Shown here: piece by piece, positions 29,374 to 44,401 of the stretch | Position numbering within the stretch: the first letter of the stretch is position 1 | How the letters are laid out: every line of letters starts with the position of its first letter | Virus record (IMG/VR): IMGVR_UViG_3300042197_001662 | Coordinates: 1 to 59,462 of that record | Strand: one strand, 5' to 3' | DNA: 59,462 bases | Source: a virus | Made by a program: the position numbers and the translations under genes | Notes under the pieces: model-generated | Seen by the model: only the letters and a program-made list of their open reading frames with translations | Database searches by the model: none | What the model was told of the DNA's origin: nothing

Positions 29374-29718
29374 CTAGGTCGGAACCCCGAGGTCTTCCGG
29401 CTGGTACTGGGTCAGCACGCAGACGTCAGCCCCCTGTGTCAAGGCAGTTTGCACGATGTAGTGGAACTGCGCCTGGGCATCCGGGCACTCCTCGATCTGA
29501 TACTCCTCCACCTCGTAGGTCATGCCGCGGCGGTACCAGGCAACCCGGATCACCGCCAGCAGCTCGAACGGGATGTCGCCCACCGTGTAGCCCAGGGTGG
29601 GCTTCCTGGGACGCTTCGGCGGCGCTGGTTCCGGCTTAGCCACAGGTTCCCTCCAGATCAGCCACGCGGCAGCCCGCATGAGCCCTAGGAAAAATTTAGG
29701 TACGGCGGAATTAGCCAT
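29374..29718 (-). CDS. Hypothetical protein
   Basis: 114 aa. N-terminal hydrophobic-basic helix (FFLGLMRAAAWLIWREP), a Pro/Lys-rich linker, then a beta-rich region (GDIPFELLAVIRVAWYRRGM; TYEVEEYQIEECP). The C-terminal domain has a sensor-like alpha/beta feel but no motif. Overlaps the RHH gene by 8 bases. Confidence 0.5.
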   Translation of the reverse strand: MANSAVPKFFLGLMRAAAWLIWREPVAKPEPAPPKRPRKPTLGYTVGDIPFELLAVIRVAWYRRGMTYEVEEYQIEECPDAQAQFHYIVQTALTQGADVCVLTQYQPEDLGVPT

Positions 29719-29917
29719 TAACGAGATCTAGGGATGGATCTGCGAACGAGTCCAGAACCTGCTCAATCTCTTCCGGTTTCCAGTGATCCGTAAATCTTTT
29801 GAAGGCGTCCCAAGTGAGACGCTCAACAAGATTGGAAACAGACCGCCGATCTTGGGTCGCCAAGTAGCGAAGGCAGGCGGCGGTCTTGGGGTTGAGAGAG
29901 ACAGTTGTGCGGGGCAT
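29711..29917 (-). CDS. Ribbon-helix-helix DNA-binding protein
   Basis: 68 aa from the ATG at 29917, giving MPRTTVSLNPKTAACLRYLA, then RRSVSNLVERLTWDAF: the strand-helix-turn-helix of the CopG/Arc family. The upstream frame to 29938 has no better start. It sits 33 bases after the helicase gene and may regulate the replication operon. Confidence 0.7.
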   Translation of the reverse strand: MPRTTVSLNPKTAACLRYLATQDRRSVSNLVERLTWDAFKRFTDHWKPEEIEQVLDSFADPSLDLVNG

Positions 29918-29950
29918 AAAAGTTATGCGGGACTGCACAAGCCTACATAA

Positions 29951-32377
29951 CTATTCCCACATTTGGGCGGCCTCAGCCATGAGTTGCTCCAGCTCCTGGG
30001 ACGAACGCCGGTCCTCTCGCGTGAAGATAACGGTGTCCAGCTGTCCCAAATCGTCAAAAGCGTTGTCCTGCAACGGATCTGCCTGATTTGGTTGTCCCAT
30101 TTTGTCCCGTTTTGTCCCAACTTGTCCTCTTGCCGTCTCGGAAGCAGGTTTGGGACAACTTGGGACAAACTGGGACAAATCAGGACAACCGGTTTCGTCA
30201 GAATCCGCTCCAGCACTGGATTCTTCTTCTTTGGGACAGGTTGTACCTCCTCCCCCCCTGCGCGCGAGAACTGCTGAGTACCTCTTGCTGGAACGATCCC
30301 CCTCAACAGCAACCAAACCTCGGTCGATCAAACGCTGGAGCGATTTCGCAATGGCGCTGACGCTGCCACCCAGCAGTGGATCAGCGTTCAATTCCGCCTT
30401 GGTCATCGGCGTGCCCTTGGTACGCAGCCGCTGGAGCACCCGGTCGATGATCGACGCGGGACTGGCGGAATCAACGCCTTCCGCAGGTGGCAGGTCCTGG
30501 AGCGAAAAGGTCAGGTCATCCTTCTGGCGCAGGATCAGCTGCTTGCCTTCGTTGCCTTCACGGCTCTTGCCGATGGTGATAAGCCGCGCAGAGGCCCCCA
30601 CATGCTCCAGCTCGGCCTTTTCTGGGCGCTTGATAGCCCAAGACTCATCCACAGCGTCCTGGAGCGCCGAGGTGCCCCTGAAGTCGCCACTCTTGGCCGC
30701 GTGGTGGATAAAGACGATGGTGGTAGCCGGGAAGCTTTCACCGTTTTCGGCGCTGTACCAGTAGATCGGCTCGGCATACTCCGCCTTGTTCTGGTCGTAA
30801 GCGCAGCCCCGCATACAGGCCGTCACCGAATCCCAGACCACCAGCTTGGGGCGATGCTCCTCGATCTGCTGGATAAACCACGGATACCAAAGCATCGAAA
30901 CCTTGTTCTGAACCACCACTGGGTCGTCAGCGGTGAAATCCAGATCCTTGAACTGCTTACGCATCCGACGGCTGTTTTGATCGCCGTTAAGCCAGAGCAC
31001 CTTGCCCTGTTCAACTGGTACTTCAGCACCACGCACGGAGAACGGAATACCACGAGCGATGTGTTTCGCCAGCGTCAACACCGCCATGGTTTTGCCGCAA
31101 CCACCCCGCCCGTGGATCAACACGGTGCCGGGTTTCGGCAGCAGATCGGGAATCAAGTATTCGATCGGCGCATCCTCCAGGGCAAAAATTTCCTGCAGGC
31201 TGCCTCCTTGGGATCCACGGCGATACTCCTGGTCCGCAATCAGCAGCCGCACAACAGCCGCCGCCTCCCGATAACCAGCCTCCAGAGCGATCTCATGGAG
31301 TTTGTGCTGCACTTCTGAGGGATTCGGCAGCGCCATCGCATCGGTGGCACGCTTGACGATCTCTTCGTGCGAAAGACCAGTGGTGCGAAACCGCTGCACC
31401 CGGTCTTGCTCAGCACTATCAACAACCTTCCGCAGATCCTCCGACAGCCACAACCGCCCAGGCATCTGCTGGTCCGCCATCCAGAACAGCGTCCCAAGGC
31501 TCACCGGCCCCTTCCGAAAACTCTTCCACGCGGCTTCGCAAGGATTGCCTTCAGCCCAATCCTGTGAAAATTCGGGGTCTTCCGCAGACCAAGCCGACCA
31601 CAGCGTCAAACCAAGGTCAGTCGGCAGCTCCGAGTGGATCGCCATCCCCACCTTCACCCAGTGATCCCGGCTGCCAGCGCCTTGCCCCGGAATCACCTTC
31701 AAGGCGGACTGGATAATCTCAGCCACCTCAGCCGGGTCTCGATCCGAGAAATCCAGTGCCTTGCGGTTCCTAATGAAGCCGGCATCCTCCACACCTTTAC
31801 CGGCACGCTCCTTCATCTCAGCGATCAGCCAATCCGGCGCCTCTGGAATCGCGTCCAGATCGCCCTCAAAGCCATACATGCCCGCCGGAGCCTTCCCATC
31901 ACTGGAACCCGGATAAGCCCCGTAGAGGACCCCCTGACGGCCCCAGAGCACCTCATAACCCGATCCTGTATCCGACAGGCCGAAGCCCTGCACAGAGCCC
32001 CACAGAGCCTCTGGAACGCGAAACAGATACTTCGCCGCGTTCGCCTTGGTGGAAGTAATAACTGGAGCCCCCTCCAGCGATTCCCCCCACTTCTTTTTGA
32101 GACGACTGAGATTCCGATCCACATCGAGAATCACGAGTCCCCTACTGCGACCGCCAGTAAAAACACCGACGGCCTGGAACACATCCGGCTTCCGCTCGAT
32201 CTGGAGCGCCACATCTGCCGGCGTCATCACGTTGTCGTGACTGTGCTTTGTGGGCGTCTTGCCTTTACTGACTGAGCCTGAGGGCAGCATCTCGCCCTTG
32301 GCGTAAATCGGGGCATACGCAAACCCAACAGGCAGCTGGCGCACAAATGCCAGCAGCTCTTGCGTCTTATGCGACAC
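29951..32377 (-). CDS. Primase-helicase: Prim-Pol N-terminus + RepA-like AAA ATPase
   Basis: 808 aa. Residues about 10-190 are an AEP primase-polymerase (VGVFTGGRSRGLVILDVD with D85 and D87; STKANAAKYLFR). Residues 230-300 are a PriCT-like domain (GSRDHWVKVGMAIHS). Residues 405-600 are a RecA/RepA-like helicase: Walker A GRGGCGKT (423-430), Walker B LVVWDS (D516), IHHAAKSGDFRGTSALQ. Residues about 650-710 are a winged helix. The tail, about residues 720-770, is low-complexity and its DNA is filled with TGTCCC/GGGACA repeats. It probably starts replication and unwinds the template for PolA. AGGAG precedes the start. Confidence 0.9.
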   Translation of the reverse strand: MSHKTQELLAFVRQLPVGFAYAPIYAKGEMLPSGSVSKGKTPTKHSHDNVMTPADVALQIERKPDVFQAVGVFTGGRSRGLVILDVDRNLSRLKKKWGESLEGAPVITSTKANAAKYLFRVPEALWGSVQGFGLSDTGSGYEVLWGRQGVLYGAYPGSSDGKAPAGMYGFEGDLDAIPEAPDWLIAEMKERAGKGVEDAGFIRNRKALDFSDRDPAEVAEIIQSALKVIPGQGAGSRDHWVKVGMAIHSELPTDLGLTLWSAWSAEDPEFSQDWAEGNPCEAAWKSFRKGPVSLGTLFWMADQQMPGRLWLSEDLRKVVDSAEQDRVQRFRTTGLSHEEIVKRATDAMALPNPSEVQHKLHEIALEAGYREAAAVVRLLIADQEYRRGSQGGSLQEIFALEDAPIEYLIPDLLPKPGTVLIHGRGGCGKTMAVLTLAKHIARGIPFSVRGAEVPVEQGKVLWLNGDQNSRRMRKQFKDLDFTADDPVVVQNKVSMLWYPWFIQQIEEHRPKLVVWDSVTACMRGCAYDQNKAEYAEPIYWYSAENGESFPATTIVFIHHAAKSGDFRGTSALQDAVDESWAIKRPEKAELEHVGASARLITIGKSREGNEGKQLILRQKDDLTFSLQDLPPAEGVDSASPASIIDRVLQRLRTKGTPMTKAELNADPLLGGSVSAIAKSLQRLIDRGLVAVEGDRSSKRYSAVLARRGGGGTTCPKEEESSAGADSDETGCPDLSQFVPSCPKPASETARGQVGTKRDKMGQPNQADPLQDNAFDDLGQLDTVIFTREDRRSSQELEQLMAEAAQMWE
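30091..30189. repeat. Dyad of 10-bp-phased TGTCCC/GGGACA repeats (iteron-like)
   Basis: Four TGTCC(C/T) at 30093, 30103, 30113, 30123 and four (G/A)GGACA at 30152, 30162, 30172, 30182. Spacing is exactly 10 bp in each arm and the two arms are mirror images about 30140. Further single copies are at 30034, 30042, 30064 and 30233. Because 10 is not a multiple of 3, the repeats fall in all three reading frames and cannot come from a protein repeat. A replication origin or multi-site binding region is the likeliest role, by analogy with iterons inside lambda gene O. Confidence 0.85.
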
Positions 32378-32523: not shown

Positions 32524-33105
32524 ATGGGATTCCTCTCTAAATCCGCCTCCGCCAGCGTCAACAGCAGCAACAGCGGCGGCGGTTACCTCAGCCTCAGCAA
32601 GCTCCCCGACGGCGGCTCCGTCCGTTTCGCGCTGCTCTCCGACGAACCGCTTGAGTTCTACGAGAGCTGGGGCACCGCCAACGGCGCCTCCAAGCCCTTC
32701 CGCTTCGACTTTGAGCCCACCTACGAGGACGTGGTGGCTGAGATGGGCGAGTTCGAGCCCCGCGAAGGCCGCGGCGGCCCCGGCACCGCCGACGTCAAAT
32801 TCGCCATCGCCGTCCCCGTCTACAACTACGAGTCGGGCAAAGTCCAAGTCCTGCAGATCACCCAGAAGTCCGTCCTCAAGGAACTGGATCAGGTGTCCCA
32901 GATGGAGGACTACGAGAACCTGCTGGAGTGGGACTTCACCGTCAGCAAAAAAGGCTCCGGCCTGCTGACTGAGTACACCCTCCGCCCGGTCCCCCGCAAG
33001 AAGGGCAGCCAAGAGCACATCGACGCCGCCTGGCTGGAAGCCAAATCCGAAGGCTTCGACATCAGCCGCCTACTGACTGGAGCCAACCCTTTCAAGGCTG
33101 CCTGA
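32524..33105 (+). CDS. ssDNA-binding-like protein
   Basis: 193 aa. A Ser/Asn/Gly-rich start is followed by a beta-rich OB-like region: YLSLSKLPDGGSVRFALLSD, EFYESWG, VKFAIAVPVYNYESGKVQVL, ITQKSVLKELDQV, YDFTVSK-like strand. This is the plan of the gp32/gp2.5-like SSB proteins of marine siphophages. No zinc motif. The gene is alone between a promoter and a strong terminator, as expected for an abundant protein, and faces the primase-helicase. Confidence 0.65.
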   Translation: MGFLSKSASASVNSSNSGGGYLSLSKLPDGGSVRFALLSDEPLEFYESWGTANGASKPFRFDFEPTYEDVVAEMGEFEPREGRGGPGTADVKFAIAVPVYNYESGKVQVLQITQKSVLKELDQVSQMEDYENLLEWDFTVSKKGSGLLTEYTLRPVPRKKGSQEHIDAAWLEAKSEGFDISRLLTGANPFKAA

Positions 33106-33123
33106 ACGCCACTAAATAACACC

Positions 33124-33149
33124 GCCCCGCCATAGCGCGGGGCTTTTTT
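33124..33149 (+). terminator. Rho-independent terminator
   Basis: GCCCCGC-CATAGC-GCGGGGC followed by six T. A 7-bp GC stem. Lies 18 bases after the SSB-like stop. Confidence 0.85.
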
Positions 33150-33182
33150 AGTGGTATTATCAAATTGGGAAAGAATAACTAA

Positions 33183-34022
33183 ATGCCTTCCAACACCCAA
33201 GACACCCTGGCAGAACTACGGAAATGGCGACTGGAGCGTGATGACACCGGCCCCTTCCGCGTCTACCGGGACATCAAGGGCAACATTTACCATAGTGTTA
33301 CACACATCCTAAAGGAGACCAGCGACAAAACCGGCCTGGAGCGCTGGGCCGCCCGCTTGGGACCCGTAGAAGCTACCCAACAGCGCAATGTTGCCGCCAC
33401 CCGAGGCAACATGGCCCACAACCAAGCGGAATATTTGCTCAAAACTGCCCAACAGCTGGCGCGTTCCACCGCAAATAAGCGCAACTCCATCCGCTGGGAC
33501 GATCAAGGGCTGGCGCGCATCCCAATCCCGATCACCCAGTGGGCACTCAACCGGGTCCGCCCCAATGTTCCCCGTGTTGGCTGGAGCGCATCAGGCTATG
33601 CCCGCGGTTTATCTGACTGGATCGCCGAGAACGTCACCGAAATTTTCGCCAGCGAATTTTCCATTCACCACCCCGCCGGCTTCGCTGGAACAGCAGACGC
33701 TTTACTCACCATAAAAGGTAAGCAAGGCATCTATGTTTGCGACTGGAAAACTAGCGTGGGACGCAAAACCGACTGCGACGATAGGCTTCCCAAAGGCCAT
33801 TCATACATTGACCAGTGTGGAGCCTATTCACTGGGACTTAAATATTTGACCGGCCTCCAACCTGCTGGGGCAGCCATCATTTTGGCCCGCCGCTGTGGCA
33901 CACCCAACGTTCATTTTATGAATGAAGATGAACTAATCGAAGCTGAAGATTCATATCTGGCACGCGTTGCCAGTTACTTTGAGAACCTGGAGCTTACAAA
34001 TCCCATTCAAGTCTCAGGCTGA
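33183..34022 (+). CDS. PD-(D/E)XK exonuclease
   Basis: 279 aa. The nuclease core is FAGTADALLTIKGKQGIYVC then DWKTS: D...D-x-K, typical of Cas4/RecB-like phage exonucleases. An N-terminal HSVTHILKETSDKTGLERWA and GNMAHNQAEYLL (His helix) match the family's first metal ligand. The Q-x-x-x-Y helix (YIDQCGAYSLGLKY) follows. Probably processes DNA ends during replication or recombination. Located after the SSB terminator, so it has its own start signals. Confidence 0.8.
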   Translation: MPSNTQDTLAELRKWRLERDDTGPFRVYRDIKGNIYHSVTHILKETSDKTGLERWAARLGPVEATQQRNVAATRGNMAHNQAEYLLKTAQQLARSTANKRNSIRWDDQGLARIPIPITQWALNRVRPNVPRVGWSASGYARGLSDWIAENVTEIFASEFSIHHPAGFAGTADALLTIKGKQGIYVCDWKTSVGRKTDCDDRLPKGHSYIDQCGAYSLGLKYLTGLQPAGAAIILARRCGTPNVHFMNEDELIEAEDSYLARVASYFENLELTNPIQVSG

Positions 34023-43372: not shown

Positions 43373-44401
43373 ATGGCTACTAAGCAGGAATACTTAACGC
43401 TTGCCCAGGTCACCGCCCTGGTGAAGCTGGCGCGTGACATCAAGAACGTCAACAGCCTGCTGTCCGGCGACGGCCCGCCAACCACCGAAGGCCGCAAGGG
43501 CGACTGGTACATCAATACCCGCACTGCCGAGCTTTACGGCCCCCGTACCACCAGCGGCTGGAACGACAGCCCACTTCCGCTATCTGGCGACGCCCGCCAC
43601 TCTGAACTACTCATCAACGGCAACCTGAGCAGCGGTGGCGGCTCCGGCACAGCCGGCACTATCACCATCGGCACAGTCACAACCGGCGAACCCGGATCCT
43701 CAGCAACGGTCACAAACGTCGGCACCGCTGAAGCCGCAATCCTTAACTTCAGCATCCCGCGTGGGGCAACAGGTAACACAGGTGCTGCGGGCTCCACTGG
43801 TGCTACAGGCGCAACCGGCGCCACAGGACCACAAGGTCCCCAAGGCCCCCAAGGCGAACAAGGTCCAGCTGGAGCAACCGGCCCTCAGGGCATCCAAGGC
43901 GCTAAAGGCGACAAGGGCGACCAAGGTGAAACAGGTCTTACTGGGGCTACTGGCCCCCAAGGTCCTCAAGGCGATACCGGTCCTCAAGGCCCCCAAGGCG
44001 ACCAAGGACCCCAAGGTTTAACCGGCGCTACGGGCGCTACCGGAGCCACCGGCGCAACAGGTCCCCAGGGCGCCACAGGTGCAACAGGACCCCAAGGCCC
44101 TCAGGGCGAAACCGGCCCCCAAGGCATCCAAGGCGCCACAGGCCCAGCTGGCAGCGACGCCACCGTCACCGCTGGAACAGGCATCAGCGTCAGCTCAGGT
44201 GTCGTCTCCTTAAACACGACCTTCCTAACCACCAACGCATACCTACAAGTCCCAACTGGAACAACACTCCAGCGCCCCGGTACACCCGCCACCGGAATGA
44301 TCCGGTTTAACACCACCGCCGGATGCTTTGAGGGCTACACAGGCAGCGCCTGGGTCAACCTATCGCCCACCGGCATCGACGACGTTGGCGCAACTGTGTG
44401 A
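43373..44401 (+). CDS. Collagen-like virion fibre protein
   Basis: 342 aa. An N-terminal helical part and a [18 protein letters not shown] segment are followed by about 45 Gly-x-y triplets (residues about 130-265), many GPQ, GAT and GDx, then a beta-rich head with [18 protein letters not shown]. Collagen-like triple helices in phages form head or tail fibres. The repeats will vary in number between strains. Position after the portal favours a head or neck fibre. Confidence 0.8.

Follow-up and report, generated by a model that had tools for sequence, protein, structure and literature searches.

The stretch of DNA analysed here, hereafter the window, comprises the whole of the 59,462 nucleotides of the IMG/VR virus record IMGVR_UViG_3300042197_001662. 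It carries on the minus strand a gene coding for a putative primase-helicase, and inside the last part of that gene lies a mirrored array of short repeats (iterons). The features of the locus, with the evidence for some of them in brackets, are the following.

29951..32377, minus strand: primase-helicase gene, 808 aa (Pfam, PHROGs, AF2 model, Foldseek)
30326..30367, minus strand: recognition-helix motif GGSVSAIAKSLQRL, residues 670-683 (covariation, out-of-sample test)
30257..30463, minus strand: predicted winged-helix domain, residues 639-707, putative reader of the iterons (AF2, fold and profile matches)
29957..30001, minus strand: conserved C-terminal helix, residues 793-807 (AF2 model, alignment)
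30034..30039, plus strand: TGTCCA, core match outside the dyad
30042..30047, plus strand: outer iteron TGTCCC of the left arm (sequence match, dyad geometry)
30064..30069, plus strand: TGTCCT, core match outside the dyad
30093..30128, plus strand: left arm, with TGTCCC at 30093, 30103 and 30113 and TGTCCT at 30123, in 10-bp steps
30129..30151, no strand: central spacer containing the dyad centre 30140.0, not notably AT-rich
30152..30187, minus strand: right arm, with GGGACA at 30152, 30162 and 30172 and AGGACA at 30182, in 10-bp steps
30233..30238, minus strand: outer iteron GGGACA of the right arm, mirroring 30042

In the encoded protein Pfam recognised PriCT_2 (residues 222-301) and AAA_25 (residues 401-565, 9e-22). 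An earlier reading of the sequence (the first-pass annotation) had named it a Prim-Pol/AAA primase-helicase; Prim-Pol, however, fell below the Pfam threshold in the window protein and was weakly matched in one close relative. The AF2 model predicts a primase-like N-terminal part, a RecA-fold helicase, a winged helix, a disordered tail and a terminal helix, although with a pTM of 0.41 for the whole protein only the individual domains were trusted. The best Foldseek matches of the helicase domain were the RSF1010 RepA structures 1nlf and 1olo (1nlf with an E value of 3e-11 and 18% identity), 1g8y ranking sixth, and the TM scores (target) for the RSF1010 RepA structures were 0.65-0.68; the protein was thus found to carry a helicase domain of its own, of the RepA-like RecA fold. 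The winged helix is predicted to consist of helices at 643-654, 660-665 and 673-685 and wing strands at 689-692 and 699-702; modelled separately it reached a pLDDT of 83 and matched wHTH folds at Z of about 10, and its profile matches were GntR/TrmB/MarR wHTH domains. A sequence-profile search of the PDB with the protein gave no match, searches for close annotated phage relatives by the whole protein or the winged helix gave weak part-matches at best, and among cellular genomes a single distant match was found, in a proteobacterial MAG (L352). Single-strand-binding and exonuclease-like genes adjoin the primase-helicase gene in the window (32524-34022), and in the Roseobacter phages CRP-811 and CRP-823 an annotated ssDNA-binding protein and a PD-(D/E)XK nuclease adjoin the helicase gene in the same order.

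All hexamer positions given in the first-pass annotation were recovered by sequence match, and the mirror symmetry it had described about 30140 proved to be exact, involving ten sites as against the eight it had seen: about 30140.0, five core sites stand in each arm, with a spacing of 51, 10, 10 and 10 bp in both. Four copies that it had set apart as extra (30034, 30042, 30064 and 30233) are present, but those at 30042 and 30233 belong to the dyad. The array lies about 90-290 bp before the end of the gene, so that the two iteron sets are within the gene and not directly downstream of it, and with 10-bp steps successive copies fall in different reading frames. No AT-rich unwinding element was found between the arms, the central 50-bp blocks being 48-50% AT and hardly above their flanks. 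The residues encoded by the array fall in the tail (residues 705-790, pLDDT about 25-35), which is predicted to be disordered; a linker of this predicted kind, joining the winged helix to the conserved terminal helix, would explain how the coding sequence can accommodate the array. Past this tail the terminal helix (793-807, near ...ELEQLMAEAAQMWE) is still recognisable, a possible docking peptide for some other protein of the replication machinery.

Two copies of the triple TGTCCC-N4-TGTCCC-N4-TGTCCC are present in the window, against none in 100 shuffles of it, and Tandem Repeats Finder called both arms independently with a period of 10. When synonymous codons were re-drawn with the amino acids fixed, none of 20,000 shuffles reached the observed 8 exact hexamers (mean 1.1, maximum 6) or the 12 core pentamers. 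Third codon positions in 18 close G-type sequences were conserved at 97.5% inside the iterons and at 81% in the rest of the tail. The two 6-mers that cluster most in the window are GGACAA and GGGACA of the array, an unrelated CCAAGG cluster at 43.8 kb tying with the second. These CCAAGG repeats, the sole other 6-mer cluster of comparable density in the window, belong to a collagen-like protein (G-x-y repeat, 43373-44401) that is probably part of a tail fibre. Outside 30020-30260, TGTCCC is scarcer than a Markov expectation (12 against about 20) and TGTCCA, TGTCCG and TGTCCT are not; the effect, a small one, might mean that off-target sites are avoided.

In scans of IMG/VR, 107 distinct coding tails were collected, the window's among them; 102 could be typed, and all 102 have GGACA-core sites at the same place in the tail, although in the alignment no other part of the protein is conserved so little. 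The base preceding the core is G in 61 homologues, A in 19, C in 14, T in 5 and mixed in 3; it is uniform within most genomes and switches between lineages, whereas the core is fixed, so that relatives which first seemed to be without TGTCCC were found to carry CGGACA, TGGACA or AGGACA at the same place. The mixed arrays are in the gene tails of L014 and L015 (A and G first bases) and L042 (T and C), and could be intermediates, that is, origins caught in the middle of a change of specificity. In the window's clade the arms keep the spacing of 51, 10, 10 and 10 bp while the centre varies by 12 bp among relatives; a second clade has arms of mixed orientation, for example with offsets 0<, 44>, 61<, 71< plus the mirror. 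An exact mirror dyad with at least 6 sites was found in 77 of the 99 cleanly typed genomes. Inverted identical arms yield a dyad automatically, and this geometry suits two assemblies loaded head to head, without proving it. The first-pass annotation had argued for selection on DNA, and had named as the outcome that would count against it the keeping of amino acids with loss of hexamers and spacing; the opposite was found among the homologues, and the conservation of sites and spacing, the concerted switching of one base and its covariation with the recognition helix together support the claim well.

That covariation also points to the probable reader of the array. By mutual information, residue 677 ranks top among the positions before the array-encoded tail, and the recognition-helix residues 677, 680 and 681 track the iteron base, with D or E at 681 going with the C type (14/14) and G at 677 with the A type (19/19, all A types sharing one helix). 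The 99 cleanly typed genomes have 27 distinct recognition helices, and not one of these occurs with two iteron types. The top 20 type-separating positions among residues 1-707 all lie in 632-704 (69 representatives), and none of 5,000 triples of N-terminal residues drawn at random classified as well. Among pairs at least 90% identical in their N-terminal part, 65% of those of the same type share the helix, as against 0% of the 349 that differ in type; in one such pair, L326 (T type) and L334 (G type), the N-terminal parts are 99.4% identical and the helices differ solely at residue 680 (T vs V), 16 other winged-helix positions also differing. At least 12 changes of iteron type were counted on an N-terminal tree and at least 6 on a winged-helix tree (FastTree, the latter poorly resolved), few of the switches being independent, and the larger number on the N-terminal tree suggests that helix and array travel as a cassette.

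A three-residue rule, fixed beforehand, was tested on 31 further distinct homologues, four of which had been fetched earlier but omitted from the first set. The rule was right in 24, wrong in 4 and undecided in 3, as compared with 20 right for a guess of always G; in all 7 failures residue 672 is K or T, not S, and the rule is therefore incomplete. Even so, no helix with two clear iteron types was found. Since the winged helix adjoins the array, part of the association is linkage. In other RepA-like families the C-terminal KAFxRA-type motifs gave no clear rule from residue to base, and so no universal code is claimed. Taking these comparisons together, it is very likely that the array is read by the winged helix of the very protein it helps to encode.

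What the array does once it is read was approached by comparison, and the self-recognising origin that the first-pass annotation had thought plausible is well supported by it: we consider it likely that the array is a replication origin lying inside the gene of its own initiator. We infer a mechanism in which the winged helix (residues 639-707) would bind the iterons, each a GGACA core with one lineage-specific base and five to an arm, so that a helicase assembly would be recruited to each of the inverted arms, the two facing opposite ways and having six subunits each if the protein is hexameric like RSF1010 RepA. Thus doubly loaded, the assemblies would open the DNA lying between them and the origin would fire bidirectionally, starting two divergent forks that may be primed by the primase part of the same protein.

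The most serious alternative is that the winged helix of the encoded protein does bind the array, but for purposes of control, such as incompatibility, copy-number handcuffing or autoregulation, and that the true origin is elsewhere. The covariation indicates a probable binder and not the consequence of binding, and plasmid iterons are generally known to serve control besides initiation; moreover, a switch of GC skew near 30.1 kb, proposed in the first-pass annotation as a check, was looked for and no change of sign was found there, so that skew lends the origin no support. An array for control would, on the other hand, sit oddly in the last part of the gene, a long way from the promoter, it is the sole such cluster of the iteron word in the window, and its position and two-arm design match those of SaPI/PICI origins. 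We therefore regard control without initiation as unlikely.

A function of the mirrored arms as a hairpin or cruciform, either in DNA, as has been proposed for pRN1-type origins, or in mRNA, appears more doubtful still. The region does fold far above shuffles (z -7.9 as DNA and z -8.2 as RNA), which mirrored iterons must do in any case, and between the arms the spacers agree at about 44-53%, as against 25% when shifted. In the window's clade, however, spacers pair no better within a genome than between genomes (0.441 vs 0.435), so that pairing is not maintained by compensating changes, and the other clade shows a small excess (0.528 within vs 0.462 between); Rfam gave no match, and folding would account neither for the uniformity of one base along an array nor for its agreement with a helix of the protein. 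The arm spacers of the window itself (30042-30238) resemble each other above chance (about 0.44 vs 0.25) yet do not covary, as if an inverted copy of one arm had given rise to the other.

Slightly less probable again is that the array is a centromere or operator for the ribbon-helix-helix-like (RHH) protein encoded at 29711-29938, which the first-pass annotation had put forward as a possible reader. Proteins of the ParR/CopG type do bind phased short repeats, the gene is directly downstream of the helicase gene, and some other G-type relatives have different small proteins there, one type of which looks RHH-like by eye. A cognate RHH gene conserved with the array, as in ParR/CopG-like systems, was nevertheless not found: by tblastn the gene is present in 6 of the 95 homologues with enough downstream sequence, the window included, and is absent from the A, C and T types, whereas arrays are present in all; neither Pfam nor PHROGs matched the protein, and the iteron base tracks the recognition helix of the helicase. 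The slot after the helicase gene holds different small proteins by lineage and is a spot of gene turnover. Lastly, chance repetition or low-complexity coding sequence in a tail predicted to be disordered can practically be dismissed, given the synonymous shuffles, 10-bp steps that cross all frames and concerted base switches with a geometry fixed across homologues.

Phased arrays at or near genes of this kind were also found in other viral sequences. Scans of IMG/VR for phased triples gave at least 119 stretches for TGTCCC and at least 120 for TGTCCG, and 27 in all for the reversed control word CCCTGT; among the matches listed, both orientations occurred within 300 bp in 47 of 71 TGTCCC and 41 of 93 TGTCCG clusters, compared with 5 of 21 for CCCTGT. 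At loci fetched by phased TGTCCC or TGTCCG triples, thus by DNA alone, 17 RepA-like genes were recognised by motif, three of them from the window's own family, and among the matches listed the array is no further than 350 bp from the stop codon in 16 of the 17; the same test with the control pattern gave none. The commonest family beside the arrays, again among the matches listed, is AAA_25 (17/69 for TGTCCC, 13/82 for TGTCCG and 0/14 for control ORFs), the neighbouring ORFs having been picked mechanically and some being surely spurious. Many of the phased arrays in the viral contigs L082-L200 and L379-L498 are without a recognised replication gene alongside. In unrelated families the array is mostly 15-75 bp downstream of the stop codon; the window's family and L403 have it within the gene. 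An origin normally situated beyond the gene may, in the window's family, have been overrun as the coding sequence lengthened.

Unrelated RepA-like phage genes, that of Rhizobium phage 16-3 among them, have different iteron words just past the stop codon. At the 3' end of the homologous helicase gene, Rhizobium phages 16-3 and RHph_X2_25 have 15-16 CGTGAC sites and Roseobacter phages CRP-811 and CRP-823 ten ACTACAAA sites, in both orientations. The words GCGTGACAA and ACTACAAA were seen at the 3' ends of RepA-like genes in L499 (3995-4370, Rhizobium phage 16-3), L500, L501 and L507, and these four arrays are probably unannotated origins. No such array was found at the six genes inspected in Caulobacter RW, Microcystis Mae-JY30, Gordonia Gustav, Salmonella SGPC, Synechococcus S-CBS4 and ctyzp037.

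That no origin of this form has been described, as the first-pass annotation put it, is too strong, as SaPI/PICI, SCCmec Cch2, P4 alpha, pRN1 and PY54 repA are comparable, and the principle of a self-recognising primase-helicase replicon is already known. Lambda O binds iterons inside its own coding sequence, and here too the iterons are inside the gene of the putative initiator, but those of lambda are longer, internally symmetric elements; lambda O is not a helicase and recruits DnaB through the loader P, whereas the protein of the window has its own helicase domain. RSF1010 RepA, the best Foldseek match to that domain, is not known to read the iterons, which is done by a separate protein, RepC. 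P4 alpha is an SF3 helicase whose origin elements are not known to lie within the last part of its coding sequence, and the RepA proteins of N15 and PY54 are P4-alpha-like. As summarised in PMC4234260, P4 alpha combines priming, unwinding and, by way of its winged helix, recognition of origin repeats in a single protein, as is predicted here, but its primase is of the Toprim type. PY54 repA alone was described as a circular minimal replicon (Ziegelin et al. 2005, as cited in PMC10612081), which implies an origin within the gene, and the linear prophage replicons N15 and PY54 appear to be like the window in this respect.

In SaPI/PICI, Cch2, pRN1 and P4 alpha the initiator is a helicase or primase-helicase whose C-terminal domain binds DNA, and the origin mostly lies at its gene or just past it. 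In PICIs the origin follows directly on the 3' end of the initiator gene and has an AT-rich region flanked by two iteron sets (PMC6092414); SaPI Rep uses its C-terminal domain, apparently as two hexamers, to read iterons a short way past its own gene, and SCCmec Cch2 behaves similarly in vitro (PMC7581432). The window shares with SaPI/PICI and Cch2 a helicase domain in the putative initiator, which in those systems is sometimes primase-fused, and two sets of short iterons at the 3' end of its gene; where those systems have a C-terminal DNA-binding domain, the window protein has a predicted winged-helix fold that covaries with the sites and may bind them. It differs from P4 alpha and SaPI/PICI in helicase fold, the SaPI/PICI proteins being DUF927 or D5_N/Primase_Cterm helicases and this one a RecA-fold AAA_25, in a probable origin inside and not downstream of the gene, and in the AT-rich stretch found between PICI iteron sets and not seen here. 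Crenarchaeal pRN1 orf904 is a primase-helicase with a C-terminal winged helix and an essential origin at the gene's 3' end (PMC4234260), although it is an SF3 helicase and its origin a stem-loop without iterons past the stop codon; stem pairing kept by compensating changes was not found in the window's clade.

For the switching of a single base the likeness is to begomoviruses, in which the base N of the geminivirus iteron core GGNGTCC changes with a single Rep residue and the two can recombine together to give incompatible replicons (PMC2974675). There too a one-base iteron change is tracked by reader residues and moved by recombination, but Rep is a rolling-circle HUH protein of plant ssDNA viruses with intergenic iterons and no homology to the protein here. 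No TGTCCC origin in phages was found in the open-access literature, nor was the combination of a RepA-like RecA-fold initiator, an origin overlapping the coding tail and four one-base specificities matched by the helices, which is weak as evidence of absence. As the features compared differ, array and gene are filed apart from PICI, P4 and lambda-type origins, as a variant of the self-recognising primase-helicase replicon.

Beyond the origin itself, we lean somewhat towards the reading that winged helix and overlapping array form a portable origin cassette of a few hundred bp which recombines between phages, with at least four mutually exclusive specificities (A, C, G and T) that may be set by a few residues of the recognition helix. 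If this is true, co-circulating phages would be split into replication-compatibility groups, which would explain what keeps the replication of co-infecting phages apart. That a single iteron position takes each of the four bases, matched each time by the recognition helix of proteins that are otherwise nearly the same, is a natural experiment on how initiator and origin, as a lock-and-key pair, change specificity jointly, and it would give orthogonal pairs of origin and initiator encoded in single genes. It would also point to a widespread and largely unannotated phage module in which a RepA-like primase-helicase gene carries a self-iteron origin at its 3' end.
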